From Eutreptiella sp. 'Long Island Sound 2002' (lineage: Eukaryota; Euglenozoa; Euglenophyceae; Eutreptiales; Eutreptiaceae): a stretch of DNA of 64,000 bases. The stretch is taken from positions 158,290,283-158,354,282 of the forward strand of contig OZ038381.1 in the NCBI GenBank assembly GCA_964036045.1. The letters run 5' to 3'. Each line of letters starts with the position of its first letter. The stretch's first letter is position 1. Positions 5,760 to 43,200 of the stretch are shown here, piece after piece. Under the pieces are notes generated by a model that did no database searches, was not told the DNA's origin, and saw only the letters and a program-made list of their open reading frames with translations. The translations under genes were made by a program, and so were the position numbers.

Positions 5760-5790
5760 CCCAAGCACCACTATCACTGTGGCGCCAGCG

Positions 5791-5813
5791 GGTAGGGTGG
5801 AGGCCACCCTACC
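5791..5813. repeat. Hairpin at the truncated retrotransposon end
   Basis: GGTAGGGTGG (5791-5800), loop AGG, then CCACCCTACC (5804-5813): a perfect 10-bp stem. Similarity of the minus-strand integrase frame to the other chromovirus copy in this window stops at this point. The last codons of the open frame are only a translation of the hairpin, so it marks the truncation junction. Confidence 0.65.
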
Positions 5814-7000
5814 GCTTCAGTACGCTCTTGTTTCATCAGGATTCTTAAGTTTTGCTCCACCACACGGTTCTGTCTCTCACAGAGAGGGTTAGACGTGTGG
5901 GTATAGGGCACACCTGTGGTTACCTCCGCGTTGGGGGCATTTAGCACTCGTTTGTACCACCCAGTGTCACTGCGGATGCGTACATCTTCATCAGAGTGCA
6001 CCTGCTTAGGTGCTCCATAGGGTTCGAACCATTGTTCGACCAACATTTTCACAGTCTGCTCACCTGTGATTTTCTTATTGCAAGGGAACACACGGGTGAA
6101 GCGAGATAGGCCACAGGTGACCACTAGGCAACTATCATAGCCGCCGAAGCGTGGTAGGCCGTGGATGAAATCCACGTAGAGAAGAGAGTTAGTACAATAG
6201 GGTATGGGTAAGCTGGAAATCAGGCCCCTATCCCTACTGTCGCTCTGCTTGCTGGCATGACAGCCACAAGCATCCACAATGGTCTGCATACGCGACCTCA
6301 GTTCGGTCAGCGTTAGACTAGAGTAGAAACACTCACGGAAGAAGTCCACTGAGCGATTAGCGCCAGTGTGACCAGAACTGAGATGGGACCACTGTAGGCA
6401 CCCATCCAGTCGTGCCTCAGGCACAACAATCCGGTCCTCGTAGAAGAGGTACTGATTGTTTTTATACCACTGGTGCCCGTCAATGAAACGGGGTTCCAGA
6501 CCAGTGCTGAGGGTTTGGAGAATTTCTTTGTACTCTGACTGATAGTCGGTTAGACTCCAACCCTCCAGGATTCCAGCAGGGCGCCCCGACAGGTCACGTT
6601 GGACATCCATACGCTGGAAAGCCTCTTTGGCGAGCGCCTCGGAGCTCTCACCTATAAGCGCGTCGAAGTTATTGCGCGATATATAGTCAGACAGTTCATT
6701 TTTTTTACCGGGGATATGATGAACTGTCAACCTGAACTGGCTCACGTAAGTCCACCACCGCTTTAGCTTTGCTTTCTCTGGCGGTGGGCCCTTCTGAAAA
6801 GACTTCACAGGTTCCTGGTCACATAGCCAGACAATAGGATTAGATCCCAGGAGTCGGGATTGTGACAAAAACACCAACATACCGGCCAGGAGTTCCTGTT
6901 CATAGGTGCTGTAATTGGAACGCGCTTGGTTCCATTTCCAATTCCAGTGTCCTAGTGGCACCAGCCGCCACTCACTGGTAGGATAGTCGTGTTTCAGCAA
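5814..7000 (-). pseudogene. Retrotransposon RNase H (3' part) and integrase, C-terminally truncated
   Basis: Residues 1-110 carry the connection/RNase H region, including VWLCDQEPV and the conserved VHHIPGKKNELSDYISR. The integrase zinc domain follows, with His206, His211, Cys245 and Cys247; the CxC spacing is tighter than the usual CxxC. The catalytic triad is visible: Asp277 (YVDFIHG), Asp337 (HSDEDV) and Glu375 (NPLCERQ), with about 37 residues between the second and third, as expected for the D,D-35-E family. Integrase would insert the element's cDNA into host DNA. Similarity to the related copy at 17.1 kb ends near residue 396; the final 12 residues are hairpin translation, so the DNA-binding C-terminus and any chromodomain are lost. 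A frameshift separates it from the upstream frame. Confidence 0.88.
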
Positions 7001-7041
7001 GCCATCACGGTGTAGTCCACTAGTACGATAATGACAGTGGG

Positions 7042-7635
7042 TTAGTTCAGCGGGGTTAAGCTCTTGCCATTGGTAGATCGTTCCACCCCCCCTACATCAC
7101 TGGCATCAATGATCAGGACTATCTCGCCCTTAGGGCGGGGCACTCCCAGGCAGTTGGAGGAGGCAGTTTTCTTCTTCAACTCCAGGAAACATTCCTCCTC
7201 CCTGGCGGTCCACCTCCAGGGAGTAGTTTTCTCGATTAGGTCAGTGAGGGGGGCAGAGGAGCAGGTAAAATTGTGGATGTGACGCCGATAGAAATTACAG
7301 GCGCCCACAAAACTCCTCACATCGTGTAGACCCTTCTTAGGGTCATCGCGAATCTGCCTGTCCTGTAGGGGCTGCATCTTAGACGCGGCTGGTTTCCACC
7401 AGCCATAACCCACGTAGAAACCCAAATATTCCATCTCCTCTTTCATAAACTCACATTTTTTGAGTTTGAGTCGGAGATGGTTTTCCTGAGAAACAATGAA
7501 AAATTCACGGAGGAGAAGGACATTGTCCTCTTGAGTATTAGGACCCAAGCTCACGTCGTCGATGTGGGCCTCCATTTCTGCACCCCGAGAAATCAACTCC
7601 TGTACTAGAGGCCTGCGCCTCAGTATGTACAAAAT
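7042..7635 (-). pseudogene. Retrotransposon reverse transcriptase (palm/thumb) and start of RNase H
   Basis: The frame continues the polymerase after an in-frame TAA at 7636-7638. It contains the polymerase active-site motif as HIDD (residues 23-26, where YxDD is usual), then the connection segment with FVGACNFYRRHI and the tether leading to RNase H (IVLIIDASDVGG). The frame then degenerates: after DVGG the related copy at 15.9 kb continues with a different sequence, which indicates a frameshift near 7.08 kb. The product would have been the catalytic centre of reverse transcriptase; in this copy it cannot be made as one polypeptide. Confidence 0.85.
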
Positions 7636-8166
7636 TTAGTTCATTAGCTCCTGGAAGAGCGCTGGGGAATTAGCCACCCCGAAAGGCATGACCTTCCACT
7701 TAAACACACGACCCTTAGGGGTTATAAAAGCGAGCAGCTCCTGAGCCGCGGCGGTTAGGTCCACCTGCCAGAAACCAGAGCGTTTGTTCATTTTGGTCTT
7801 GTACCTGCATTTAGCAATACGCTCCAGGGTATTTTCCATGTTAGGAATACTCCCTGAGTGGTTCTGGGTTTTCTTGTTGACCTCACCATAGTCAACAACC
7901 AGTCGTAGGGCAGTCAACCCTGGTTTAGCAACCATTAAACAGGGACTGCAGTGATGGGGGTAGTCCCCCTTCTTATATTCTTCAACGAGGCCAGCATCAA
8001 TATATTCCTGGATCTGGCGCTCAATTTCTTCAACCTGTTCCTGTGAAGCAGGATAGGGACGACTCCTCACTCGCGTCCTTTCAAATTCAGATTTCAGTTT
8101 CAGGTCCATCTGGACCAGTTTTTTACAAGAGAGGGGGGGGGGGCAAGGCGCCAAACACCTCCTCAT
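7636..8166 (-). pseudogene. Retrotransposon reverse transcriptase, fingers and palm
   Basis: Reverse transcriptase of the Ty3/gypsy type. It shows RSRPYPASQEQVEEIERQI, the LRLVVDYGEVN motif at residues 88-98, and the KMNKRSGFWQVDL segment. In active enzymes that segment carries the first catalytic aspartate; here residue 127 is Asn, so this copy looks catalytically dead unless the lineage tolerates it. The PFGVANSPALFQELMN motif ends at an in-frame TAA (7636-7638), after which the same frame continues. The upstream junction at 8133-8143 is an 11-G run (C-run on the coding strand) where the previous frame slips into this one, so the two open frames were one polyprotein. Confidence 0.9.
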
Positions 8167-9321
8167 AGGTTATCAGCAGTTTCTTCAGTCGGGGGTCAAG
8201 GTTAAGACTCTCGAGTTTCTGCAGGAAATCCTCCTCAGCATGGAGGTTGCTCTTTCCATGTTCTGTCTTTTTCTGCCGATCAGCAGTGTCGGCAGGCACA
8301 GAACCATCGTCCCACTCAGAGGGACATTGCTGCCCATAGTGCAGAGAATACACTAGCGGTATCTCAGGATCAGGCAGCGTATTGAAATTATCGTCCTCCT
8401 CAGACCAGATGGAGGATTTCCAGGTCTGTCTGAGGTATTGCAGCCGCTCTTGGCGCTTAATACCTTCGGCCTTCAGGTACAACAGCCGCCGGAGTTCCTG
8501 AGTGTCATGCTCAGACAGTGGCATGTTATTAGAAGCAAGCCGCGCCAGAGCATCAGGACTCCGGGCCACGGGTTCACCTGTGTGCATAGGCTGCATGTGT
8601 AGCACTGGCTTCCCAACATGGGGAGCGGGTTCTGAGGTCAACTTTAGATCTACCTCCTCCAGCAACAGCTTGGCTAGGAAGGCACTGTGTTTTAGGTCAA
8701 CACAGCTGGGATCAACAGGAGGGATAGTGCTGGCGATCTCAGACAGTTGGTCGTCAGCATCCTCCTTAACAGCTGCAGGTTCCAGATAGCCATCGGGAGA
8801 TTCACACCCTGTAGGTGTGGCAGATAGGTGCTCAGGAGATCGGTTTTTGAGATCATAAAGGGTCAGGCCACGATTTTGGGCCATGATCTCTTTCAGTAGC
8901 ACCTGGTCTAGGTCACACAGGGGTACAGGATTGAGAGATCCATCAACGATGGATAAGAAACTGGCCCACTCAGGGGCCTGCATAGCTGTGTCTGAGTCCT
9001 CAGGCACATAGATGGGACCGTCAGGGAGTTGCACTCTTCCCACGGTCATTCGATCTAGCATACGGCGCCAGTAAGCGTGTTCACCAGAGCAGCCCCAGTC
9101 AGGGGTGCACATGACAACCCTTCCTTCCTCATAAGCGATTTTGGTTAGAACCTTCGCGAGCAGGGAGAAGGGAGGGTTGGCATACGCTAGGCCCATTGCT
9201 TTCCAGAAGAAACGGAAAGCGTTGTTTAAATGTTTCGAGCAGTACAACTGCATGATGTGCTGTTGTCCGCTCGCAACAATTCGACCTGGATATCATCCAG
9301 GCTTACCTGAAGGGCCGCCAT
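8123..9321 (-). pseudogene. Polyprotein segment with Dam-like (N6-adenine methyltransferase-like) domain between protease and RT
   Basis: From the ATG at 9251-9253 the frame reads through a region with AFRFFWKAMGLAYANPPFSL, then a helix (LAKVLTKIAYEEGRVV) and MCTPDWG. The NPPF tetrad (residues 26-29) matches motif IV of N6-adenine methyltransferases. The spacing of the preceding aromatic/Trp segment and the following strand resembles the Dam-type domains known from some eukaryotic retroelements. An in-frame beginning lies upstream (ATG at 9319-9321, ...DDIQVEL), separated by an apparent 1-nt deletion near 9277. After the domain comes a long acidic linker (about residues 70-350) and then YEEVFGALPPP, the usual lead-in to reverse transcriptase. 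Whether it is an active methyltransferase is unproven: I cannot identify a complete cofactor motif. Confidence 0.6.
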
Positions 9322-10292
9322 CTTCTAGAACGTGACGGGCCAATTGGTAGTTTTCAGTACGATAGTTAGTCTTGGATGCGTAGCGCAGCCCAGACTCTTT
9401 TCGCCCTGACAGCTCCGAAGGTACGGAGAAGAGCCCACCGCTAAAGTCGCAGTGGAAAGAATAAGGGCGCTGGAGAGACAGCATTTTTACCTGGGGGTTT
9501 CTTCGTAGGAAGTCGGTACCAATGACGATGTCAAAGGCATCAGTGTCCAGCACTCTGCAGTGTTGGGTCACAGTTTCGTCGCCCAAGCATATAGTCACAT
9601 TGACTCCCCCCAAGGAATGGATGGTACCCCCATCCCCTACTCTTATGGCCGCGGTCTTAGTTTTCTTGAAAGTCCTTAGCAGGCGCCGGGCCACTATGGA
9701 AAGTGTTGCACCGGTGTCAAGCACCGCTCGAAAAACTCGAACCCCCATTTTCACTAGGATCGAGAAAACCAAGTCCTCCTCTTCGGAGCCGCCCCCCTGC
9801 TCCTCATCAGCAAACTTGACATCCATCCCTGCAGCCATGAGGGACTTGGCCATCCAGGCCAGTCGCCTCTTCTTGGAGTTATTCCCCTCAGGGGAAGCGT
9901 TATCCCCCTGTGGGCGCTTCTTGGGGTCACCTGCGGCAGGAGGGGGAGTAGCAGCGGGCGCTGATGAGCGTCTCTGGGGGTTAGGGGGTCCACCTTTGCC
10001 ACCCCCCTTGCCACCTCCTTTACCACCTTTATCCCCATTCGGGGGATTTCTGGTGGGTGTTTTGGTCTTCTGGCGTTCAGCCTCCTGTCGCTTGAGTTTA
10101 TCACTCTCGCGTTTGTTTATGTGACATTCGTCTTCGTAGTGACGACGTTTGCCACAATAGCCACAGGTGATGGTACACCTGAAATGATCCTGATGGGTCA
10201 CAGGTTTCCCATCCTTGGTATGCTGCTGTCGTTTCATCTGCAGCATACAGCTACTGCGGTGATCGCAGTCAGGGGCATGACACGGCCCCCCC
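9293..10292 (-). pseudogene. Retrotransposon gag C-terminus (zinc knuckle) and aspartic protease
   Basis: The frame is open upstream of its first ATG to the edge of the nested insertion and there shows Cys/His pairs (PCHAPDCDHRSSC). It continues with a second Cys/His group (CGYCGKRRHYEDECH), a retroviral-type zinc knuckle for binding RNA. A Lys/Gly-rich and Pro-rich linker follows. The pepsin-like retroviral protease shows LDTGATLSIV (catalytic Asp in DTGA) and the second hallmark IVIGTDFL. Protease would cut the Gag-Pol polyprotein. The frame ends at TGA at 9293-9295, overlapping the first codons of the next frame, so a frameshift or an internal break separates it from the Dam-like segment. 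Confidence 0.88.
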
Positions 10293-10319
10293 TTGTCATT
10301 AGATTCGGGCCACCTCGCC

Positions 10320-10925
10320 CTCCTGTCGCCATCCTGTCGCCTCCCTGTCGCCTCCCTGTCGCTGTTTTGGCACTTTCAGCCCCCTGTCGCTCCCCTGTCG
10401 CTTGCCTGTCGCCTCCCTGTCGCTGTCCTGTCGCTCCCCTGTCGCTCTCCTGTCGCTTCCCTGTCGCTTTCCTGCCGCCCTCCTGTCGCTATCCTGTCGC
10501 TTCCTGTCGCTTCCTGTCGTTTCCTGTCGCCATGCTACTTTTTGCCTGGCGCCTTCCTATCGCTCTCCTGTCGCTCTCCTGTCGTTCCCTCCTGTCGCTC
10601 TCCTGTCGCTATTTCCTGTTGCCTCCCTGTCGCCCTCCTGTCGCTTGCCTGTCGTCTTCCTGCCGCCTCCCTGTCGCCTCCCTGTCGCCTCCCTGTCGCC
10701 TCCCTGTCGCCCAACGTAGTAACCTGTCGCTCTCCTGTCGCTTGCCTGTCGCTTGCCTGTCGCTTGCCTGTCGTCTTCCTGCCGCCTCCCTGTCGCCTCC
10801 CTGTCGCCTCCCTGTCGCCTCCCTGTCGCCCAACGTGGTAACCTGTTGCTCTCCTGTCGCTTGCCTGTCGCTTGCCTGTCGATTGCCTGTCGCCTTCCTG
10901 TCGCCTCCCTGTCGCCCAATGTGTT
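10320..10925. repeat. 11-bp minisatellite, left block
   Basis: The unit is TGTCGCCTCCC with variants (CTGTCGCTTGC, CTGTCGCTCTC), in dozens of copies. A higher-order period of about 120 bp is marked by the phrase CGCCCAACGTRGTAACCTG near 10707, 10826 and, in altered form, 10912. Because 11 is not a multiple of 3, all three frames read the same repeating peptide, and no stops arise on either strand. The long open frames here are artefacts of the repeat, not genes. Confidence 0.9.
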
Positions 10926-11420
10926 ACCCTATCGATGGAAAGCCATAGATACCTCAAACAGGCAGTTCGATAGTACTAAAAATGTTCTTTGTTCATGCCA
11001 AATTGTGAGATCTCACCTTAGCAAACCTCCCCAAACGTGTGCAAAGCAATGATGCAAATCGTAGATCGATGGTTCAATCATTTGCATTGTTTGGCAATCC
11101 TAAATTCCTAACACTCTTGGTGATCTACTATGCACATTTGCATGGCCGCTCAGCTGTAGGACAAACCCCGAAATGACTTCATTCTCGCGTGTCCAAGTGC
11201 GGCCCATTGCAGCCAGCATGGCCGTCACCACACGCAGCTGGTACGGCACTTCACTGCACAGGCTCCATGTTCTGCCACTCTCAGTGACCAAAAGACAATG
11301 AGGATCGAAGGGTTGGTCAGTGCCTGCAAAGTAACAGGTTGCGTGTAGCAGGGTCGGTTACTGTCCAACAGGCGAGTGGTCTGCTCCTTGCCGCGTGTGC
11401 CCTCGCTGGTGTGCACAGTT
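10926..11420. other. Unique spacer between minisatellite blocks
   Basis: Non-repetitive DNA inside the nested insertion. No open frame in it resembles a known protein, and no transposase motif was seen. Confidence 0.5.
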
Positions 11421-12018
11421 GTGCTGTGCTGTGCCGTGCGGTGCTAAATTGTGCTGTGCTGTGCCATGCGGTGCTGAGTTGTGCTGCGCTGTGCCGTGCG
11501 GTGCTGATTGGTGCTGTGCTGTGCCGTGCGGTGCTGAATGGTGCTGAGCTGTGCCGTGCGGTGCTGAATGGTGCTGTACTGTGCTAAGTGGTGCTGTGCT
11601 GTGCCGTGCGGTGCTAAATTGTGCTGTGCTGTGCCGTGCGGTGCTGAGTTGTGCTGTGCTGTGCCGTGCGGTGCTAAATTGTGCTGTGCTGTGCCGTGCG
11701 GTGCTGAGTTGTGCTGCGCTGTGCCGTGCGGTGCTGATTGGTGCTGTGCTTTGCCGTGCATTGCTGAATGGTGCTGTACTGTGCTAAATGGTGCTGTGCT
11801 GTGCCGTGCGGTGCTAAATTGTGCTGCTGTGCCGTGCGGTGCTGATTGGTGCTGTGCTGTGCCGTGCGGTGCTAAATTGTGCTGTGCTGTGCCGTGCGGT
11901 GCTGAGTTGTGCTGTGCTGTGCCGTGCGGTGCTGCATTGTGCTGTGCTGTGCCGTGCGGTGCTGAGTTGTGCTGTGCTGTGCCGTGCGGTGCTGAATGGT
12001 GCTGTGCTGTGCTGTGCG
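11421..12018. repeat. 30-bp minisatellite (about 20 copies)
   Basis: The unit is GTGCTGTGCTGTGCCGTGCG followed by GTGCTGAATG or GTGCTAAATT, about 20 head-to-tail copies with few differences. Since 30 is a multiple of 3, each frame encodes a 10-residue repeat (for example VLCRAVLNCA). There are no spacers, so this is not a CRISPR array, and codon content follows the repeat rather than selection on protein. Confidence 0.92.
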
Positions 12019-12644
12019 GGAGAGCTCAGAGAGAGACCTGGGAAACAGGGCAGAGACGTTGCCTGTTCCTGGGGTCGTGAACGCGTTGTTGCCGGGCTCC
12101 TCCGGAATCCTCGGATAGGCGATAGATCAGTGCAAGGAAACCTGTGAGGAAAAATAGGTCCTGATCTTGGGGATAGAAATGGGTCGGCTATCACTGCGGC
12201 ACACTGATCGAGCAGCTAAGTTGTACACACACAAGGACCTTTTCTTTCTTGCTCTTATTTGTTTCTGACTGTGTTATTTTTGTCCTCTTCTTGCCACATT
12301 TTCTGTTTATTGTTTATAGTGAGTTCTCGTGAGTTCTTGCTGTCGGGACGAGTTCTTGTTTTCGGGATGTCGGGACCAGTCATGATCGGGACAGTTTGCA
12401 GTTGAAACTTATCTTTATCTTTATCATTTGGCTTTCAGTTTCAGGTGAAATCTACCTGCTGAATGTAGTGATTCCATAAAAGATTAAAATTCACCAAATG
12501 GTAAACGTTTATCCATGTAACAATGAAATGACATCTTCATAAGAATCCCAATAAATCTAAAACATTGGTTCTCATTTTCTTTACATATATCCACCTATAT
12601 AAAAAACCATGTACTATTTTGTCTCACTTGTTGTCCTCCACAAG

Positions 12645-13096
12645 CCTGTCGCTCTCCTGTCGCATCCCTGTCGCCTTCCTGTCGCCTTCCTGTCGCCTTC
12701 CTGTCGCAAAAAAACACCCTGCCGCTCTCCTGTCGCTCTCCTGTCGCTCTCCTGTCGCTCTCCTGTCGCTTTCTCCTGTCGCTTCCCTGTCGCTTCCCTG
12801 TCGCCGCTAGCCCTGTTGCCCTCCTGTCGTCTTCCTGTCGCTTTCCTGTCGCTTATCCTGTCGCTATGTCTTGTTTCCTGTCGCTTCCCTGTCGTCTCCC
12901 TGTCGCCACCCTGTCGCCGCCCTGTCGCCCTCCTGTCGCCCTCCTGTCGCAGCTCTCCTGTCGCCTTCCTGTCGCCTGCCTGTCGCTTCCTCTCGCTTTC
13001 CTGCCGCTTTCCTGCCGCTTTCCTGTCGTCTTTCTGTCGCCACCCTGTCGTCTTCCTGTCGCCACCCTGTCGCCTTCCTGTCGCTCCCTGCCGCAT
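12645..13096. repeat. 11-bp minisatellite, right block
   Basis: The same CCTGTCGC-based repeat as the block at 10.3-10.9 kb, in the same orientation, ending about 20 bp before the right terminal inverted repeat. Copies are more diverged (CTGCCGC, CTGTTGC variants). Having both blocks in direct rather than inverted orientation distinguishes this from Drosophila-type FoldBack elements. Confidence 0.9.
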
Positions 13097-13130
13097 TTAA
13101 CCGTCGCCTGCCTCGCGTGGCCGGAATCTA

Positions 13131-14632
13131 TTGACAGCTTTACAGTAGAACAGAGGGGGTGTACCTGCATCAGGTTTAACCTCATTCATGGCACGTAGGT
13201 TATCCCTCCCTTTAGCACCTCCCTGGTTGGTGTTAGTGGGATTTTTAGGCCCTTTCCCTTCGCCACGTTCGGGGGTAGGGGTACCACCTCGACCCAAGTG
13301 CTTCTTGAGGAATTTCTCCCTGTGGGAGTCATTCTCCCTGTCAAGAGCTAGCTCAATCAGCAGGTCCACCAGTTCGTCCTACGAGTCGGTCCGGCTTTTC
13401 CTCTCAGAGGTAGCGCAGCAGTCATCCCACGTACGTTGGGGGATCTAACTCATGAGCCACAGATGGGGCTCAGTGGCTCCGTAGGAGCCCACGTTCATCC
13501 GTGAAAACAGATACTCCAGGTCGGACACATATTCAGAGACTCGCGCAGCGAAAGGAAACACAGGGAGCATAGGTAGCTCCTCTATCTGTGTGCGCACACT
13601 GAGGTCAGTCTCATAGACTGGGAATGTTTTCTCCAATCTCTGGAGTACCTCTACCCAGGTTGAACAGTTTTTCACAATCTGTTTCACCTGTTTTTGCGAA
13701 AATTTCTTTTTGCACGAGCGTTTCAGCAAGGAGCATTTGGTGGCCACATCCACATGGGATTGGCCAGTGAGCAAAAGAAACTCAGAAAATTCTTCTGCCC
13801 ATTCAGGCAGATTTTTCGGGTCGAACTCCGGCAGTTCTAGCTGGATGTTCGCCTGGGCAATAGGTCTGCCCATCTTCCCACCCCCCGGGGTTAGGCCAGA
13901 AGGAGAAGGAGATACGCCGGCAAGAGGTGCCAGGGCTGACAGCCCTCTTTTCTCAGTCTCCGTCACCGGCACGTCCTGTAGTTCAGCAATAGGGACTGTC
14001 CTGGCGCGAGGATGAAAAGGGCTGGGGCAAGTGACCTTGGGTAGCAACCTGGACACCCTTGATCTTTTGAGATCATCAGCCAACGTGCTCAATCCGGGTG
14101 AAGGTGAGAGTAGCGCTGGCTTGGGTAAGGGTTCAGTGATACCCAATTTAGCCTTGACAGCCTCTGACAGAGCTGTCACATCCGGGTCTTCCGATCCGGA
14201 TAGAAGTTTGGCCAAAAGTTCGGCCGTACGATCCAGAGCCCCATGGGTGGGCTCTGGGCGAAGTGGATCCATTATTGGCAGGTCTGGATGCCTTGCTCTC
14301 GGGTGTTCCTGTACTCTCGATCGTCTCGGTAGTGATACTGTGTCCGCCATGTCTGTAGATGGACCAGAATAGAGGAAGGAGCCCATCTCAGTTTGGAGCG
14401 GCGACCCGAGAGCATCAAGAGGTATTTCCCCATCTTCTCCTACGGTGGACTTGTGGTACTCTTCGTGGAGCATGAACTCGTCCATCCTCCTTCGTAGGTC
14501 CTCTTGTTCTTCAGGACCGACTCCAACTACGGTAGAAGACGAGGCCGGACAAGCGGACCGGGCGATGGAAGCTTCGACACGCCTGCGGAGCCTTTGCAGG
14601 CTGTCTTCACCATGGGCCGCTAAGGTTTCCAT
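13131..14632 (-). pseudogene. Retrotransposon gag, N-terminal part, with two in-frame TAG codons
   Basis: The first ATG is at 14630-14632; the frame is open further upstream to about 14755 without an ATG. The middle contains a typical gag capsid region (LPEWAEEFSEFLLLTGQSHVDVATKCSLLKRSCKK is interrupted here for length; see 13.65-13.84 kb), preceded by a Pro/Ser-rich disordered segment. The frame meets TAG at 13445-13447 and again at 13379-13381, then continues in the same frame through RENDSHREKFLKKHLGRGG to ...PLFYCKA at the edge of the nested insertion, beyond which the zinc knuckle resumes at 10292. Gag would form the particle that packages element RNA. This copy is broken by the two stops and the insertion. 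Confidence 0.8.
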
Positions 14633-14760
14633 GGTTAATGGGATTGTTCTGGGCGTATTTAGTTCCGCCCTTCTGTGCTCTGGATCTTCCTGAGACCCAG
14701 ATGCTGCTCTGAGTGGCGGTTCACTCTTTGGGTGGGCTACACTGCCATGTTGCACTTGTA

Positions 14761-15600
14761 CACTTCTGATCGGCCAGGTTCAGGAGGACAGTTGAGTGGA
14801 CATGTTCAATGTGCTTTTCAGTGTGCTTTTCTTGTGCTTCTGCTCAGAGTCCGTTCGAAAGGTTCTCAGGGTTTGCCTCTGCTACCGGAAAGATGTCCTT
14901 GGTTAGTGCCCTATAGATTTTGATGAAATCCTGCAGGTTTTTGATGTTGAAATCCCAAAACCAAAGGAGCAAAAAGTGCAAGAACAGGATGTGGATCGAA
15001 TCAATGAAAAGTTTGAAATCCAGTGTAACACAGAAGGGCTGCAGATAGACAAAGCAGGTATAAACACAAAGATTCAATCACAAATGGATAATACAAAAGA
15101 TTTAATATGAAAACTGGTCTGACTCTAGCCTCCAAGTTAGCATCAAGCACTTCATGTGCACTCTTTTGGGTGAAATGGTGCTGGTTAGGAATGTGGGGCA
15201 TAGGTGTCAGGCCAGACACAGAATATGACTTGGCCAAGCAACTGAATTCAGAAACAGTTAAAAAGTAGAACCACATTAAGTGGTAGTAACAATTGAGTAT
15301 AGGGGTCTTGGGGTGGGAGACCACTAGGCTTAACCTCCAAGGCTTAAAGCATGAAATGCCTATTTTATTTCGGTATATCCTCCATGAAGGAGAATACCTC
15401 CGCTCAGTTGAGTGGTAGGGGTGAACTTCATGGGGGGCTAGGGTTACAACCCTAGTTACTTTGAGAAAGTGTACTTTAAGCTTCAAAAGAGTGATAAAAA
15501 TACTTAAGTTAGTCCTAGCATCAACAAAAGGGTTTTAAAGGGGGCTTGGCCTGGATCAACCCCTCCAAGAAAGACAAGGCAGTGACTTTTTCTTACTGAC
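14761..15600. other. Junction between two divergent retrotransposon remnants
   Basis: The 5' leader of the minus-strand element should lie here, but I found neither a convincing primer-binding site nor a long terminal repeat matching the other side. Positions 14900-15110 are AT-rich. Around 15370-15470 there are short self-complementary stretches. Coding similarity to the plus-strand element starts abruptly near 15602. Confidence 0.4.
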
Positions 15601-15601
15601 C

Positions 15602-15928
15602 CCAGCGGCCTCTAAGGCCAAACCCCTGATGGACGCTAAGGTACGACATGAAGACCCCAAGAAAGGACTCCATGATGTACGCAGTTTCATTGGGGCGTGC
15701 AACTTCTACCGCCGCCATATCAAGAACTTCACCTACACCAGCGCCATTCTGACGAACCTGGTCAAGAAGAGTACTACTTGGCGCTGGGGCCCACAAGAGC
15801 AACAAGCGTTTGACGAGCTCAAAGACAAGGTGGCCAACGCTAAGTGCTTGGGTAGAGCACAAGGTGAGATTATCCTGGTGTCCGACGCCAGCAATGTGGG
15901 CGGTGTTGGAACGTTGTTCCAATGGTAA
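15602..15928 (+). pseudogene. Reverse transcriptase thumb and start of RNase H
   Basis: It shows GLHDVRSFIGACNFYRRHIKNF, split here only by the length rule as HDVRSFIGACNFYRRHI, followed by the tether TTWRWGPQEQQAFDELK and the RNase H start (IILVSDASNVGGVGTLFQW), which holds the first catalytic aspartate region. It stops at TAA 15926-15928, in frame with the next segment. The corresponding region of the 5.8-14.8 kb element is about 7.1-7.4 kb. Confidence 0.85.
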
Positions 15929-16966
15929 GCACTGGAGAAGGAGGAGTTCGACTCGGCTATTTCCCAATGGGGGACTGAAGGTCTCAACCGAGATGGAACT
16001 CTCAAGCACAGCTACCCTGACGACAAGTGGGTCCTAGTACCTCTGGGCCACTGGAACTGGAAATGGAACCAGGCCAGGGGGAACTACTCCACCTATGAGC
16101 AGGATTTGCTCGCGGGTGTGCTGGTGCTATCCTCTCAGGCACGACTGTTGGGGAGTAACCCTGTGGTCTGGCTGTGCGACCAAGAGCCGGTCCGCACTTT
16201 CCAGAAGGGTCTGCCCCCTGAGAAGGCCAAGCTACGGCGCTGGTGGACCTACCTCAGCCAACTACGGCTGACGGTGCACCATATCCAGGGAATGAAGAAC
16301 GAGTGTGCAGACTACATCAGCCGCAACAACTTCGATCCCCTGATTGGTGCCCGGTCTGAAGCGCTAGCTAAGGAGGCTTTCAGCCGTATGGACGTACACC
16401 TGGACCTGAACATGACTATGATACGCCCCCTAGATGGACTCCAACAAGCGGAATACCTGAACGAGTTTGGGGATATCTACAAGCGCCTGGAGAAACGCCT
16501 TGAACCCCTCCTGGTCAACCAAGAGCAGTGGAAGAGGGACAAGACCTACCTCTGGCATGAGGACCGCATCGTGGTACCTAGTGACAGAGTCCCAGCGCTG
16601 CTGAAGTGGACCCATGAGTCCTGCGGTCATGTGGGTGCTGACCGTACCCTGAGGCTATTCAAGCAGTGTTTCCACACTACGTTGACTGATGACCAACTGC
16701 GCAAGACCCTCCAGCCTATCGTGGACAAGTGCCCGTGTAGGTCCTGCAAACCTGGGGATATCAGGGACAGGGGTCTCTACTCGACCCTGCCAATCCCCCA
16801 CTGTGCTAACAGTGTTCTCTATGTGGACCACACGGAGATGCCTAAAATTGGGGGCTATGACTTTGTCCTCGTGGTGACCTGTGGGTTGACCAGGTTTACC
16901 AGAGTGTTCCCATGTACCAAGCACATTACCGGAGAGGAGACTATCAAGATACTCCTGGAGGAGTGA
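15929..16966 (+). pseudogene. RNase H and integrase N-terminal half
   Basis: The frame continues after the TAA through WVLVPLGHWNWKWNQ, VWLCDQEPV and VHHIQGMKNECADYISR (RNase H and connection), then the integrase zinc domain with His in WTHESCGH and Cys in KCPCRSC. The first catalytic aspartate is in LYVDHTE; this copy is a little shorter there than the other element. The frame is cut by TGA at 16964-16966, where the other copy has Trp (VEQWFEPYGAP). The enzyme would be split in two. Confidence 0.87.
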
Positions 16967-17998
16967 TTTTGTGTCTATGGGGCGCCCAAGGAGATCAACT
17001 CCGATGAGGACGTACAAGTACGCTCAGATACCGGTTGGTACAAGAGGGTCCTGAGATCCCTCAATGTCCAGGTGTCTACGGGGATTCCCTACTCTCACAC
17101 GAGCAACCCCCTATGTGAGCGACAGATCCGTGTCCTGAAGGAGAATGTAAGGATATGGTGCAAAACTGAACGCACCAGAGACTGGGTGAGACTACTCCCT
17201 GTCATATCCTTGATGATGAACTCCCAAGAGAGTTCAGCGACTGGCTACTCACCCCATGAGCTATTCCTAGGGCGGCCGGCGTGGTTCCTACATGCTCCCT
17301 ATCCAGAGGACACCCATTCTTCTGTGGGTGAGTGGGTCCAGGAGCAACAAGCGAAGGTGGACAAGGCCAAGGCTATGCTCCAGAGAGTGAGGGAGCGTCA
17401 GTGGAACATAAAGAACAAGCACCGGCTGCCTGCTACCTACCAAGAAGGGGACTGGGTGCTGGTGCACCACAGCCGACTACCGGCCTGGCCACGCTCTACC
17501 AGAGATGACCCCTACTTTGGGCCCTACAAGATTCTATCTGTGGATGGACACCGTATTACAGTGCGGTGTTCTCCGCATCTAGGGGGGACCCTGGTGCGCG
17601 CTGCTCAGCACCTGAAGCACTACTATGATCCTGAAGACCTCTGTGGGGAGGAGTGGGAGCTGAACGACGAGGAGATCGCCGCCTCAGACCTACAGGGGGC
17701 TGCCAGCCCTATGGAAGTGGAAGGGGACCTCCCCGACATGCACGCCGAGGAGATGGCTAAGGAGGGCTTCTACCTGGAGAAGTCTGTCCTACGCCACCGC
17801 TATCGCCAGGGTTGGCGCTTCCTCACCCTCTGGGAAGGGTTTGAAGTCGAAGAGGCCACCTGGGAGCCCTTCTCAGCGTTTGTTCTACCTGAGGGACGCC
17901 TAAACTCAGTTCTGGTAGACTACTTGTCCCAGAACAACCTTGGTGAGTTGCTGAGGCTCGCTGAGACGCTTGCCTCCAAGACGAAAGCTAGGGACTGA
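16967..17998 (+). pseudogene. Integrase C-terminal half with chromodomain
   Basis: Downstream of the TGA the same frame continues YGAPKEINSDEDVQVRSD (second catalytic Asp) and SNPLCERQIRV (catalytic Glu). A GPY/F-type module follows: GDWVLVHHSRLPAW and FGPYKILSVDGHRITVR. At about 17764-17885 there is a chromodomain: FYLEKSVLRHRYRQGWR, then LTLWEGFEVEEATWEPFSAF, with the conserved aromatic and W-E-P pattern. In chromoviruses this domain is thought to steer integration by binding modified histone H3. The frame ends at TGA 17996-17998. Confidence 0.87.
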
Positions 17999-27035: not shown

Positions 27036-29297
27036 TTACAACACCCCAAGCAGGAACTTATACATGACCAGCCCAATGCGTGTGCCCGCAACGTACCCCA
27101 CCAGCCCCACAGTGATGGCGGGGATGGTCAGGTCCGGGCGCTTGATACTCTCCGCCATGCTCGCGGCCGTGGCGGCCCCTCCGGCGCAGGCGTTGCTGGC
27201 CACCAGCATCGTGTCGGTGTCCATGCCGCGGCCCCGCGGCATGCACTTGTTGAACGCCCACCGCCCCGCCATCAGCAACGAGAGGTGCACCGCCAGCACC
27301 GCAGACATGGACCCGATGGCGGTGGCCCCCAGCCGCTCCAGCTCCTGCAGCGTCGCGGTGGCCCCCAGCGTCGCGAAGAACATGTTCATGAACAGCTCCG
27401 CAGCGGCCTCGATGGCGTTGAAGAGCCGCGGCTTCCAAGCGGCCGAGAGCGTGCGCTGCAGCACGGCCCCGATGCCGTAGGCCGTGAAGATCATGAGCAC
27501 GAGGGGCACAGAGGTGAGGGGGATCAGGTGTGCGAACACAGCGCACAGGCCCGCCAGCCCGAGGCCCGCCGTCCCCGCGAGCAGCAGCAGCGCGACGTCG
27601 TGGATGGACTTGGGGTTGGTGGCCTGGATGTGCTCCTTCCCCCCGGTGTCGTGGTAGGACTGGCTGTCGGGGGAGAACTGATGGATCAGCCGCAGTACGA
27701 AGAAATACAGCCCCATGACCGCGACGTCACCCCCTGCGAGGACCGTCACGTACTGCAGGCCCTCGGGGTCGGGGCCGATGAGCCGGACGGTCTCAAAGAA
27801 GTTGGCGGTGCCGCCGATGTACGAGGCCGTGAGGCAGCCCAGGGACAGGGCCATGAGGTGCGGGGGCACCCCCAGGCCAAGGGCCTGCATACCGGCGGCC
27901 GTGAGGAGGGCGCCCGTGATCGTCCCGACGGCGCCGAAGCACAATGCGGCGAACATGGGGCCCAGGCGGGACCCCTCCTTCGGGGGCGGGGGGGCGGGCT
28001 TGGCCTTCTTGGCCCGGGAGGAGACGAGGCCGCGGACCGGCTTGGTGGCCTTGGCGGGCTTGGGGGGCTTGGGGGGCTCGGCCTGGGCTTTGGGGGCGGG
28101 CGCCTGCAGGAGGAGGGAGAGAGCAAGGGAGCCCGGCAGAAAGTAGTCGAAGGCCAGGTCGACGTCCACCGGGAGCCCAGCCGTGAAGCCCAGGGAGGCC
28201 CAGACGGACGTCGCGAGGAAGCAGAGGAGCTCGGGGGAGACGCGCCGGGCGTACGCGTTGCGGTTGTGGAAGAGCATCGTGGCAGCGGCGACCCACCCGA
28301 TGAGGTACATTGGGTACAGGTGGGGGTTGAAGCGGAGGGCCAGCCCCAGGGCCGCGCCGCAGCACGCGGTGAAGGCGTAGGCGACCAGCCGACCGACGAG
28401 GCCCGACCGCGGGGCCTTGGACGCCGGCGGGGGCTCCAGCAGGGGGACAAAGGGGGCCTTGGGGCCCCGGCTGCCCCCTTTCGGGTCCCGCGGGTCGTTG
28501 CCTGGGACCAGTGTGGAAGAGGTGGCGCTGCCAGTGACCAGTGGGTCCCGCTCTTTGGGGTCTTGGGCGGCGCTTGGAGAGGGCGCCGCTGGGGGGCTGC
28601 GGAGCTCGGCTGTAGGAAGGGCGGGGGTGCCTGTTGCCAGCCCTGCCTCCGGGTCGGCGACCTGCGGGGGACTTGCTGGGGTCTCTGGTGCGCCAACGGG
28701 TTCCACTGCGGCGTCTTCGGTTGCCTTCTCGACCTCAGGGTCAACCAATGCGGTCCGATCGGAAGCGCAAAGGGCCATAGGCTGACGGTGGTGGTCTGTG
28801 AGGCACGGGATCCCTTCCTGGGGGGACGTGACGGCCACCGAGAAGAGGGCCTGCTGGGCCCCCGCGCGCTGCCTCCGTGCCACGTACGTGGCGAAGCCCA
28901 GGAAGCCACAGGCGACAAGCACGTCGCCTGCCCAGAGGCTCTGGGGCGGGGATGCTGGCGCCACATGTGGAATGCCTCCAGGGCTACGCACGGCGTACGG
29001 AGGCGCTGCAGGCGTCCGGGCTTTCAAGATGTCAGGCCCCAGCAGCTGTGAGGCCGTGGAAGTACGAGAGGCCTCTACAAGTGGAGGCTTGGTCAGAGCG
29101 TGGGGCGTGGCAGGGCGAGATCGGACGGCGTGGGTGGCCTGGCTTGGAGACCAGAGATGGGACTGACGCACCGCATGTGCCGGGGCTGTCATGACCAGGA
29201 CCCACAGAGCGGAGAAGCCCCCGAACACCAACAGCGGGTACTGCCAGCTTCTCGTGGGGGACATGTCGCTGACTGCCAATTGAGAATAATCTTCCAT
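27036..29297 (-). CDS. DUF819-family multi-pass membrane protein
   Basis: 753 residues from the first in-frame ATG (29295-29297). The frame is open upstream to 29492 but that part has no ATG; its Ser/Ala-rich composition could be a missed targeting peptide from an upstream exon. A hydrophobic segment (QYPLLVFGGFSALWVLVMTA) ending in APAHA looks like a cleavable signal or transit-type sequence. A long Pro/Ala-rich linker follows, then the DUF819 (PF05684) core of about ten membrane helices. Hallmarks are LTASYIGGTANFFET and, near the C-terminus, SNACAGGAATAASMAES and VGYVAGTRIG, which match the family's glycine-rich conserved motifs. Plant and algal members are predicted organelle membrane proteins; the transported substrate is unknown. 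The second low-complexity block (residues about 420-470) splits the core, and the usual proteins are about 400 residues, so this one is long. Confidence 0.85.
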   Translation of the reverse strand: MEDYSQLAVSDMSPTRSWQYPLLVFGGFSALWVLVMTAPAHAVRQSHLWSPSQATHAVRSRPATPHALTKPPLVEASRTSTASQLLGPDILKARTPAAPPYAVRSPGGIPHVAPASPPQSLWAGDVLVACGFLGFATYVARRQRAGAQQALFSVAVTSPQEGIPCLTDHHRQPMALCASDRTALVDPEVEKATEDAAVEPVGAPETPASPPQVADPEAGLATGTPALPTAELRSPPAAPSPSAAQDPKERDPLVTGSATSSTLVPGNDPRDPKGGSRGPKAPFVPLLEPPPASKAPRSGLVGRLVAYAFTACCGAALGLALRFNPHLYPMYLIGWVAAATMLFHNRNAYARRVSPELLCFLATSVWASLGFTAGLPVDVDLAFDYFLPGSLALSLLLQAPAPKAQAEPPKPPKPAKATKPVRGLVSSRAKKAKPAPPPPKEGSRLGPMFAALCFGAVGTITGALLTAAGMQALGLGVPPHLMALSLGCLTASYIGGTANFFETVRLIGPDPEGLQYVTVLAGGDVAVMGLYFFVLRLIHQFSPDSQSYHDTGGKEHIQATNPKSIHDVALLLLAGTAGLGLAGLCAVFAHLIPLTSVPLVLMIFTAYGIGAVLQRTLSAAWKPRLFNAIEAAAELFMNMFFATLGATATLQELERLGATAIGSMSAVLAVHLSLLMAGRWAFNKCMPRGRGMDTDTMLVASNACAGGAATAASMAESIKRPDLTIPAITVGLVGYVAGTRIGLVMYKFLLGVL

Positions 29298-29805
29298 TGG
29301 TGCACTTTCACACGTTATGACATGTATCGCCCCAGACTGGACCGAGAAAGCTGTTGAGACAAGGTTGCCAAATGGGCCCAGGCTCGAGGAAGCAGACAAA
29401 CTCGCAAATGAGGGTAGTCTCCGAGCCCCCTCATAGCCACAGCCATAGCAATTACCATCCACCCCACAACTTTCCACACCACCGCAGGCCAAAGAAGCTC
29501 GAGTTCCTTCGCTCGGGACACCCTAGCACACCCAGAGGTATGGAGGGCTCACGACATCATCGCCCCAAACTCCCTTTTTAACGTTTTTGTTTGCTGCACG
29601 GTGTTTAGCGATGCTCAGTCAGCTTGAGCCACAGCCTTATGGCCACGCCCTGGTCACGAGAGACAGGCAACTCTTCCAACGGCTCTTCTGATTTTCTTAA
29701 CCCCCGCTTCTCCCCCTGCAACAGTGATTGCAGTGATTCCATTCACCTTTCCTTCCCCGTACGCCCAAACATTGGGATGGCTCAATGAGTGCTAGCCTAC
29801 ATGTT
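29298..29805. other. 5' flank of the DUF819 gene
   Basis: Probable promoter and 5' untranslated region of the minus-strand gene ending at 27036. I see no clear TATA box. No other gene recognised. Confidence 0.35.
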
Positions 29806-36190: not shown

Positions 36191-36371
36191 TGAAACTTGG
36201 GCACGCACACAGGTCGACTTACATTTCACCCACCACTGGACACCACCACCCTTGCCATCGTCCAAAACGGGGTGCAAAGGTTGTGCCAAATTCTTCGACG
36301 CAGCGGAAGGTACTCCAAAATCTCATCATGTGCATTCTTGTTCTCCCTCTCACACTCTCCCGTTGCAAAAC

Positions 36372-37200
36372 AGGGCGGAAATGCTACGTCACACCTGCAT
36401 TCTCCGGGATCCCCAAACATATGGGGGCAAAATCAGAAGTAGCTACCAAAAGCGTAACGAAGATTGTCCCGGTTTCCTCAATAGCACCGGAAGGTTGGGG
36501 CCCAAAAGAGAGCGGAGATGCTACGCCACCCCTGCATTCTCAGAGGTCCCCAAACAAAGGGGGACAAAATCAGTATTGGCGACCTCAACCCTGCTTTATC
36601 GGGGGCCCAAAAGAGGGCGGAAATGCTACATAACCCCTGCATTCTCGGGTATCCCCGAACAGATGGGGGCAAAATCAGAAGTGGCTTCCAACAGCATAAC
36701 GAAGATTGTCCCGGTTTCCTCGATAGCACCGGAAGGTTGGGGTCCAAAAGAGGGCGGAAATGCAATGTCACCCATGCATTCTCGGGGGTCCCAAAACAAA
36801 AGGGGATAAAATCAGAATTGGCTGCCCCACCACTTCCTTCTCGGGGCCCAAAAGAGGGCGGAAATGCTACATAACCCCTGCATTCTCCGGGATCCCCAAA
36901 CATATGGGGACAAAATCAGAAGTGGCTTCCAATAGCATAACGAAGTTTGTCCCGGTTTCCTCAGTAGCACCTGAAGGTTGGGGCCCAAAAGAGGGCGGAA
37001 ATGCTACATAACCCCAGCATTCTCGGGGGTCCTCAAACAAAGGGGGACAAAATCAGAAGTGGCTTCCAAAAGCATAACGAAGATTGTCCCGGTTTCCTCA
37101 ATAGCACCGGAAGGTTGGGGCCCAAAAGAGGGCAGAAATGCTACGTCACACCTGCATTCTCGGGGGTCCCCAAACAAAGGGGACAAAATCAGATCCCAAA
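36372..37200. repeat. Tandem array of 138-bp and about 105-bp units
   Basis: The phrase GAGGGCGGAAATGCTACATA and variants recur at about 36372, 36510, 36617, 36755, 36856, 36995 and 37133. The spacings are near 138 or 101-107 bp. The long units add AGATTGTCCCGGTTTCCTCA and CCGGAAGGTTGGGGCC. The 138-bp unit is a multiple of 3, so one plus-strand frame reads a 46-residue repeat. A single copy lies in the 57.3-kb element (57800-57920), showing that the array is an expansion within this copy. Confidence 0.85.
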
Positions 37201-42415: not shown

Positions 42416-42554
42416 ACATCTAGCCACATGAATGCACCAAGTTTGCTACTGTGCTGCCGTAGACACACATGGGGTACCAACAAAATTATGCGGAAAAAAA
42501 TTCTATTGCCTTCGGCAAGGCACCTCGAAGAGGGGAGAGGGACAGCCTTTTTTT

Positions 42555-43200
42555 GAGCTGCTCAGGCGGGAAAGCTGCATAAGTAGGTTGTGCCCTAGAC
42601 CCCTTGGGAGCCCCCCCCCCCCCCCCCCAAACACCCAAATAGGGTGAAAAACGCATAAAGAGGGGCTACAACATGCTTTGCATAGGATATTTGATCATTT
42701 TGGATGGTCAAGTTATCAACAAAATCAGTTTTGGAATTTTCCATTTTTGAGCTGCCGAGGCGGAAAAACTGCATGAGCAGGTTGTGCCCAAGACCCCTTG
42801 GGAGCCCCCCCCTCCCCCCAACACCCAAATAGGGTGAAAAACGCATAAAGAGGGGCTAAAACATGCTTTACATAGGATATTTGATGATTTTGGATGGTCA
42901 AAGTATCAAAAAAATCAGTTTCGGAAAGTTCCATTTTTGAGCTGCCGAGGCGGGAAAACTGCATAAGCAGGTTGTGCCCTACACCCCTTGGGAGACCCCC
43001 CCCAACACCCAAATAGGGTGAAAAACACGTAAAAGAGGGCTAAAACATGCTTTACATAGCATATTTCATCATTGTAAGTGGTCACAATATCAAAAAAATG
43101 TTTTGCAAAAATTTCCATTTTTGACCTGTAGAGGGTGGAAAACTGCTAAAGCAGTTTGTGCACACACCAAAGGCCATTGAACCACCTACAAACAGCAATT
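42555..43200. repeat. Four-unit tandem repeat of about 190 bp
   Basis: The phrase GAGCTGCCGAGGCGGGAAAA recurs at 42555, 42749, 42939 and, diverged, 43123 (spacings 194, 190 and 184). Each unit contains a C-run of 7-19 bases, AACACCCAAATAGGGTGAAA and AACATGCTTTACATAGGATA. The minus-strand frames through it simply repeat. Confidence 0.88.

Follow-up and report, generated by a model that had tools for sequence, protein, structure and literature searches.

A predicted PIF/Harbinger-type DNA transposon with same-facing 11-bp arrays near both ends, inserted in a gypsy gag gene of Eutreptiella

Repeat arrays in transposons are easily written off as products of slippage. Here we analysed a stretch of 64,000 nucleotides (the window) from contig OZ038381.1 of Eutreptiella sp. 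'Long Island Sound 2002' (assembly GCA_964036045.1), in which a 2,829-bp element (10301–13129) interrupts the gag gene of a gypsy-type retrotransposon. We consider it likely that this element derives by internal deletion from a PIF/Harbinger-type cut-and-paste transposon, of which it is a non-autonomous copy, and that the rows of 11-bp repeats inside its two ends are protein-binding sites. A second, diverged family keeps arrays that match these in period and orientation, and its core differs by one base. Between them, the two families offer a natural test of whether arrays of this kind serve as recognition sites and of which element protein reads them.

The element and its insertion site

The inverted ends of the element are 13 bp long and complementary at 12 of 13 positions (AGATTCGGGCCAC versus GTGGCCGGAATCT). 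Exact matches to the array core CCTGTCGC number 68 in the window, and 66 of them lie within the element, all on the plus strand; chance alone would give 1.83 in a window of this size. The original prediction, made from the letters of the window, had described a block with inverted-complement ends that breaks the gag frame and carries an 11-bp repeat at both ends in one orientation. The sequence, the gag flanks and related gag proteins confirm this observation, with corrections. The limits of the block, put at 10293–13137, move inwards to those given above. Its interior does contain the repeat arrays; to call it almost entirely repetitive was an overstatement, as the 11-bp and 30-bp arrays occupy about 1.65 of the 2.83 kb. 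The window copy has no transposase, as had been said, and longer copies encode a predicted one.

On the minus strand, the gag codons that flank the element read TGT AAA GCT GTC AAT on one side and AAT GAC AAG on the other; once the element is taken out together with one AAT, they encode VND. Related gag proteins were fetched for comparison (16 among 120 listed, 784 having been found), and one does not cover the site. The site reads VNDKGG in 13 of the remaining 15, and DNDKGG and TDDKGG in the other two; FYCKPVNDKGGPCHA is an example of a relative across it. The uninterrupted relatives, together with the codons that flank the element in the window, indicate that AAT (ATT on the plus strand) was duplicated by the insertion. 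This comparison, which had been proposed as a means of fixing the insertion point, also disposes of TTGTCA/TTGACA as the target duplication: both are native gag codons (GTC AAT GAC AAG, minus strand), and the true duplication is the 3-bp ATT.

The window copy of gag has stop codons of its own upstream of the element, so the inserted block is not the sole damage to the gene. At the predicted gag site of a diverged gypsy subfamily, 8 of 16 DNA stretches align on both sides and are free of an insert (68–74% identity); of the rest, 3 align on a single side and 5 gave no alignment. Viral contigs searched with the gag query gave zero matches.

Copies, ends and target preference

We searched the host genome (2.28 Gb) for the end patterns, allowing up to two mismatches. 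The left-end pattern occurs at 450 places (214 + 236) and the right-end pattern at 533 (268 + 265), and the reversed patterns, used as controls, at none. The best 40 of 3,072 candidates in a left-end search comprise the window and 39 others that match at 98–100%; these 39 matches begin at query bases 190–201, no more than 12 bases from the inverted end. All 20 copies that were read continue into the array past the left end, and the left inverted repeat is exact in all 20 fetched copies. The suggested search for other copies of the ends found them at hundreds of places.

Ends were paired in the region where the listings of exact matches are complete for both ends (C1, C2 and C3 to 89.65 Mb). 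There, 33 of 47 exact left ends have an exact right end on the same strand within 25 kb, against 0.12 expected. The shortest pair spans 433 bp and the longest 20.5 kb; two others measure 10,074 and 10,078 bp. Because only exact ends were paired, copies with an altered end, such as the right end of the window element itself, are missed.

Target duplications were surveyed in 39 complete copies: 29 newly read pairs, nine copies fetched earlier and the window. Among the 33 pairs, the spans of 18.8 and 20.5 kb were left out, and L018 and L022 had already been counted. Identical 3-bp duplications flank 35 of the 39 copies, where about 0.6 would be expected at equal base frequencies. Their sequences are ATT (15), ACT (9), AAT (6), AGT (4) and GTT (1), so that 34 of 35 are of the form ANT. 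The wider target context is C-A-N-T-G; of the 35 sites, 28 show the C, 34 the A, 35 the T and 21 the G. The number of copies and these duplications bear out the earlier reading of the block as a mobile element, bounded by terminal inverted repeats, that inserted in gag.

A left flank is common to L085/L086 and L087/L088, and a right flank to L037/L038 and L039/L040. Such flanks probably reflect local duplication, and these copies are therefore not fully independent. L085/L086 and L087/L088 (G000 C3, 63.0 and 63.1 Mb) are copies of about 10.08 kb with one left flank and differing right flanks, a pattern that suggests local duplication or recombination.

The full-length copy and its deletion derivatives

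The full-length copy (L017 and L029) is 10,047 bp long, with ATT on both sides. The window copy aligns to its positions 1–885 (95.9%) and 8000–10053 (93.1%), and by this alignment is an internal deletion derivative of the longer element. The eight other complete copies that we compared are internal deletions too, a number of which contain additional sequence or multiple gaps. Copies of 433, 530, 775 and 1,446 bp keep the ends, partial arrays in one orientation and matching duplications. Judged by sequence, the series is the usual pattern of an autonomous cut-and-paste transposon and its non-autonomous relatives.

We rejected the sparing of the arrays by deletion breakpoints as evidence, since by a rough estimate it has a probability of about 0.57 if breakpoints are random. 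Copies were found via the left array, so the retention of that array is biased. In six of the 20 fetched copies (L009, L010, L014, L016, L020 and L026), the interior departs from the family after the left array, in some cases with gypsy-like frames; nested insertions and captured sequence are the alternatives.

Predicted proteins

The minus strand of the full-length copy encodes pieces that contain, in order, IVDSTHV, LGDLHY and IENAFSNIKKF. A gene model in which two GT-AG introns, placed at about 1542–1460 and 1144–1057 of the full-length copy, join three pieces gives a predicted transposase of 296 residues that matches the Pfam profile DDE_Tnp_4 over its whole length (1–158; 7.2e-11, 42.4 bits, cut-off 24.8); an alternative splice choice gives 1.3e-9. 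For the first splice we followed relatives whose piece ending SWWYPP or SWWYSP continues into the second piece. The model agrees with P0122, P0127 and P0130 in its first intron and its first two catalytic D residues, and with P0127 and P0130 also in the E; P0130 represents a third transposase family. Among the best 150 of 484 matches to the 248-residue frame that carries the first D, 26 are at least 95% identical over 247–248 residues, and 23 of these 26 are free of stops.

In a second open reading frame (ORF), of 798 residues, one region is RING-like (TRIM32 chain 2ct2, E = 0.0024) and the end is weakly Agenet-like (E = 0.37). All of its Pfam matches fall under the cut-off, and none is to Myb/SANT. 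To our knowledge, a RING-like partner would be unusual in the PIF/Harbinger superfamily; a literature search for a Harbinger transposase with a RING finger second ORF found no paper.

Subterminal 11-bp arrays

Counted by the core CCTG(T/C)CG, the arrays of the full-length copy, with the core CCTGTCGC, comprise 48 units on the left and 37 on the right, none of them reversed. Reverse units are likewise absent from 19 of 21 stretches, and L010 and L027 have one each. With L015 and L026 excluded beforehand, 17 of 19 aligned copies are gapless against the majority sequence over the first 637 bp of the left end. The other two are the window copy, which is the most diverged (12 substitutions in 628 positions and 18 gap columns), and L027 (6 gap columns). 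Right ends were compared in 10 copies, of which 5 align without gaps, another 4 show 22 gap columns and L024 shows 76. Periodicities of 119 and 134 bp within the arrays point to past internal duplication.

A second family

Transposase matches of about 58–67% identity led to two copies of a second family, L035 and L036. L035 is without a left end; L036 is a complete element of 6,042 bp with the terminal inverted repeat TGATTCGGGCCC, and in this one complete copy the duplication could be compared at both ends, with ATT on each side. Each of its ends has an 11-bp array built on the core CCTGACGC; the units of both arrays face the same way, reverse units are absent and so is CCTGTCGC. Its transposase is 58.6% identical to that of the first family over 133 residues (E = 3e-52), a piece of the RING-like ORF 38% identical (E = 3e-6), and its internal 30-bp repeat, which is of simple composition, 75–84% identical at the DNA level. 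The two families have the end core GATTCGGGCC and the ANT target in common. Their array cores (CCTGTCGC versus CCTGACGC) differ by one base, with period and orientation alike. That two families with clearly different proteins keep these arrays is our main reason for treating the arrays as part of the machinery of the element. The arrays thus look like a feature conserved in this lineage, and most likely serve to bind proteins.

The right end of the second family occurs at 248 genome places. In all 20 of those that were read, ANT follows the end directly, and in 14 the next base is G. Translated flanks place L035 (at 7715) and L036 (at 8518) at what is apparently one homologous RNase H codon in two gypsy copies; the gypsy flanks are 71% alike over 340 aligned bases, and the elements 96.6–98.5% in two main aligned blocks. 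A general gypsy insertion hotspot for this family was rejected, as 20 further right-end flanks are unlike each other and unlike those of L035 and L036.

Relation to known transposons

In PIF/Harbinger elements, the second gene encodes a Myb/SANT-like DNA-binding protein. The elements described here resemble this superfamily in their predicted D-D-E domain, in duplicating 3 bp of target, in having short inverted ends and a second ORF, and in the occurrence of deletion derivatives and miniature copies. The predicted DDE_Tnp_4 transposase and the 3-bp duplication place them within it; as far as sequence can tell, this is a PIF/Harbinger (IS5-like, DDE_Tnp_4) type DNA transposon and not a new transposon class. 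They appear to depart from it in the RING-like second ORF, which has no Myb/SANT match, and they do so in the long one-orientation 11-bp subterminal arrays. PIF/Harbinger terminal inverted repeats are given as 14–25 bp long, with G(N)5GTT in Medicago (PMC2213677); here they are 13 bp and the end AGATTCGGGCCAC lacks that plant motif. The original prediction is partly supported. Its remark that it knew of no described transposon class with this layout does not stand, as the full-length copy encodes a predicted DDE_Tnp_4 transposase and subterminal tandem repeats are described in one Medicago PIF/Harbinger subfamily (PMC2213677).

In that Medicago account, the subfamily MtPH-A6-4 has members from 431 bp upwards and 60-bp subterminal tandem units that number from 2 to 35, which is explained by gap repair; the repeats are in opposite orientation where they occur at both ends, and are absent from 5 of 23 members (PMC2213677). 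Our elements resemble it in having subterminal tandem repeats and differ in that the units are 11 bp long, face the same way at both ends and are kept in two families. A discussion of mPing takes up internal promoting sequences and the multi-site model for TnpA of Spm, with multiple sites inside the ends that are thought to bring the ends together (PMC9921582). The arrays are similar to these En/Spm (CACTA) sites, although the transposase superfamily and the ends are different. Galileo and FoldBack elements likewise have repeat-rich ends, and the long inverted ends of Galileo contain multiple transposase-binding sites (PMC3688188). The inverted ends of these elements are described as unusually long, whereas here the terminal inverted repeats are 13 bp and the arrays direct. 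Among the titles and opening lines of abstracts listed by our literature searches, with few subscription papers, no element of the kind found here is described. The 11-bp arrays in a single orientation, maintained in two families, are still out of the ordinary.

Interpretation and alternatives

In the explanation that we favour, the transposase, perhaps with the second protein, would cut at the inverted ends. The 11-bp arrays would offer one of the two element proteins rows of sites spaced by about a helical turn, which might serve to load the transposition complex or to regulate the element. With all units facing one way, the two ends would be non-equivalent, and short copies could arise from abortive repair after excision. 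More specifically, the elements may belong to a distinct DDE_Tnp_4 lineage in which transposition depends on two same-facing arrays of an 8-bp core, the core changes together with the proteins (CCTGTCGC/CCTGACGC), a RING/Agenet-like protein replaces Myb and the ends are distinguishable; this we offer tentatively, as a possibility that we would not yet favour.

Several points weigh against the explanation. The transposase gene is a predicted one, and its unspliced pieces score under the Pfam cut-off. Matching duplications are absent from 4 of the 39 complete copies, and the duplication is ANT (34 of 35, with one GTT) instead of the TTA/TAA given for plant PIF/Harbinger elements (PMC2213677). 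Array length varies, with 39 left units in L015, 35 in L026 and right counts from 32 to 37. The 433- and 530-bp copies, which have duplications, retain only the outermost 35 bp or so on the right, so that the full right array is perhaps dispensable, unless the deletions postdate insertion. Finally, the likeness of the 30-bp repeats between families is weaker evidence, given their simple composition.

Some of these points could also be read as signs that the element is of Harbinger type while its 11-bp and 30-bp arrays are passive minisatellites left by slippage or gap repair. The shorter left arrays of L015 and L026, the loss of most of the right array from the 433- and 530-bp copies and the duplications recorded in the 119- and 134-bp periodicities agree with this, as does the attribution of varying repeat number in MtPH-A6-4 to gap repair (PMC2213677). 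Passive arrays are harder to reconcile with the gapless left ends of 17 of 19 aligned copies and with a second family that, with a different transposase, keeps the arrays, their period and their orientation and changes one core base. The 8-bp core is also conserved where the 3-bp spacer is much freer: non-consensus bases account for 18 of 424 core but 78 of 159 spacer positions in the left array of the full-length copy, and for 12/304 versus 51/114, 24/328 versus 57/123 and 4/232 versus 19/87 in the other three arrays, although finding units by core match (up to three mismatches of eight) favours core conservation, which makes this support and not proof. We regard passive arrays as unlikely, while still the rival that deserves most attention.

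Other classes fare much worse. CACTA/En-Spm elements have subterminal arrays of short binding motifs, a CACTA-type transposase and ends that begin CACTA. The 3-bp duplication and the motif arrays at both ends recall them; the ends found here (AGATTCGGGCCAC) do not start with CACTA and the predicted transposase is DDE_Tnp_4, which makes this placement very improbable. FoldBack elements have long inverted arrays at their ends, and Helitrons have neither inverted ends nor duplications. The direct, one-orientation arrays do not fit the former, as the original prediction had already argued, and the inverted ends and duplications do not fit a Helitron or DINE-like element. A composite satellite or an assembly artefact is at odds with hundreds of sites and with the matching duplications. 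High repeat content, and the existence of repeat-bearing Helentrons (PMC7492417), are what these last readings have in their favour, and we give them almost no credence.

Features of the window

The features of the element and its host are collected in Table 1.

Table 1. Positions of the inserted element and of the interrupted retrotransposon in the window
Feature	Position	Strand	Remarks
Gypsy-type retrotransposon hosting the insertion	5774–14779	−	RVP, RVT_1, RNase H and rve pieces (several of these Pfam matches under the curated cut-off) and gag relatives
gag, in two parts	13133–14779, then 9293–10297	−	pol next
Left target-site duplication ATT	10298–10300	+	Equals 13130–13132; gag codons read VND without the element and one ATT
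Left terminal inverted repeat AGATTCGGGCCAC	10301–10313	+	Exact in fetched copies (20/20)
Left 11-bp array	10322–10918	+	46 units by core CCTG(T/C)CG, all in + orientation
Internal deletion junction	11160–11161		Against 10,047-bp copy positions ~885 and 8000; ~2 bp (GG) in common
Internal 30-bp tandem repeat	11419–12019	+	Similar repeat in second family (75–84%, aligned pieces)
Right 11-bp array	12645–13097	+	36 units by core CCTG(T/C)CG, oriented like the left array
Right terminal inverted repeat GTGGCCGGAATCT	13117–13129	+	Usual family form GTGGCCCGAATCT
Right target-site duplication ATT	13130–13132	+	Equals 10298–10300

Elsewhere in the window, a second gypsy-type pol with several open frames and RNase H matches lies at 15539–17998 on the plus strand, in opposite orientation to the interrupted gypsy element. 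An open frame of 828 residues at 27036–29522 (minus strand) contains a DUF819 domain (6e-13), and one relative was found (P0121, 57%). Nested tandem repeats of about 105, 137 and 242 bp, based on GGGGCCCAAAAGAGGGCGGAAATGC, occupy 36366–37193, and a 190-bp tandem repeat of 3.2 copies, with a C-rich tract, occupies 42550–43161.

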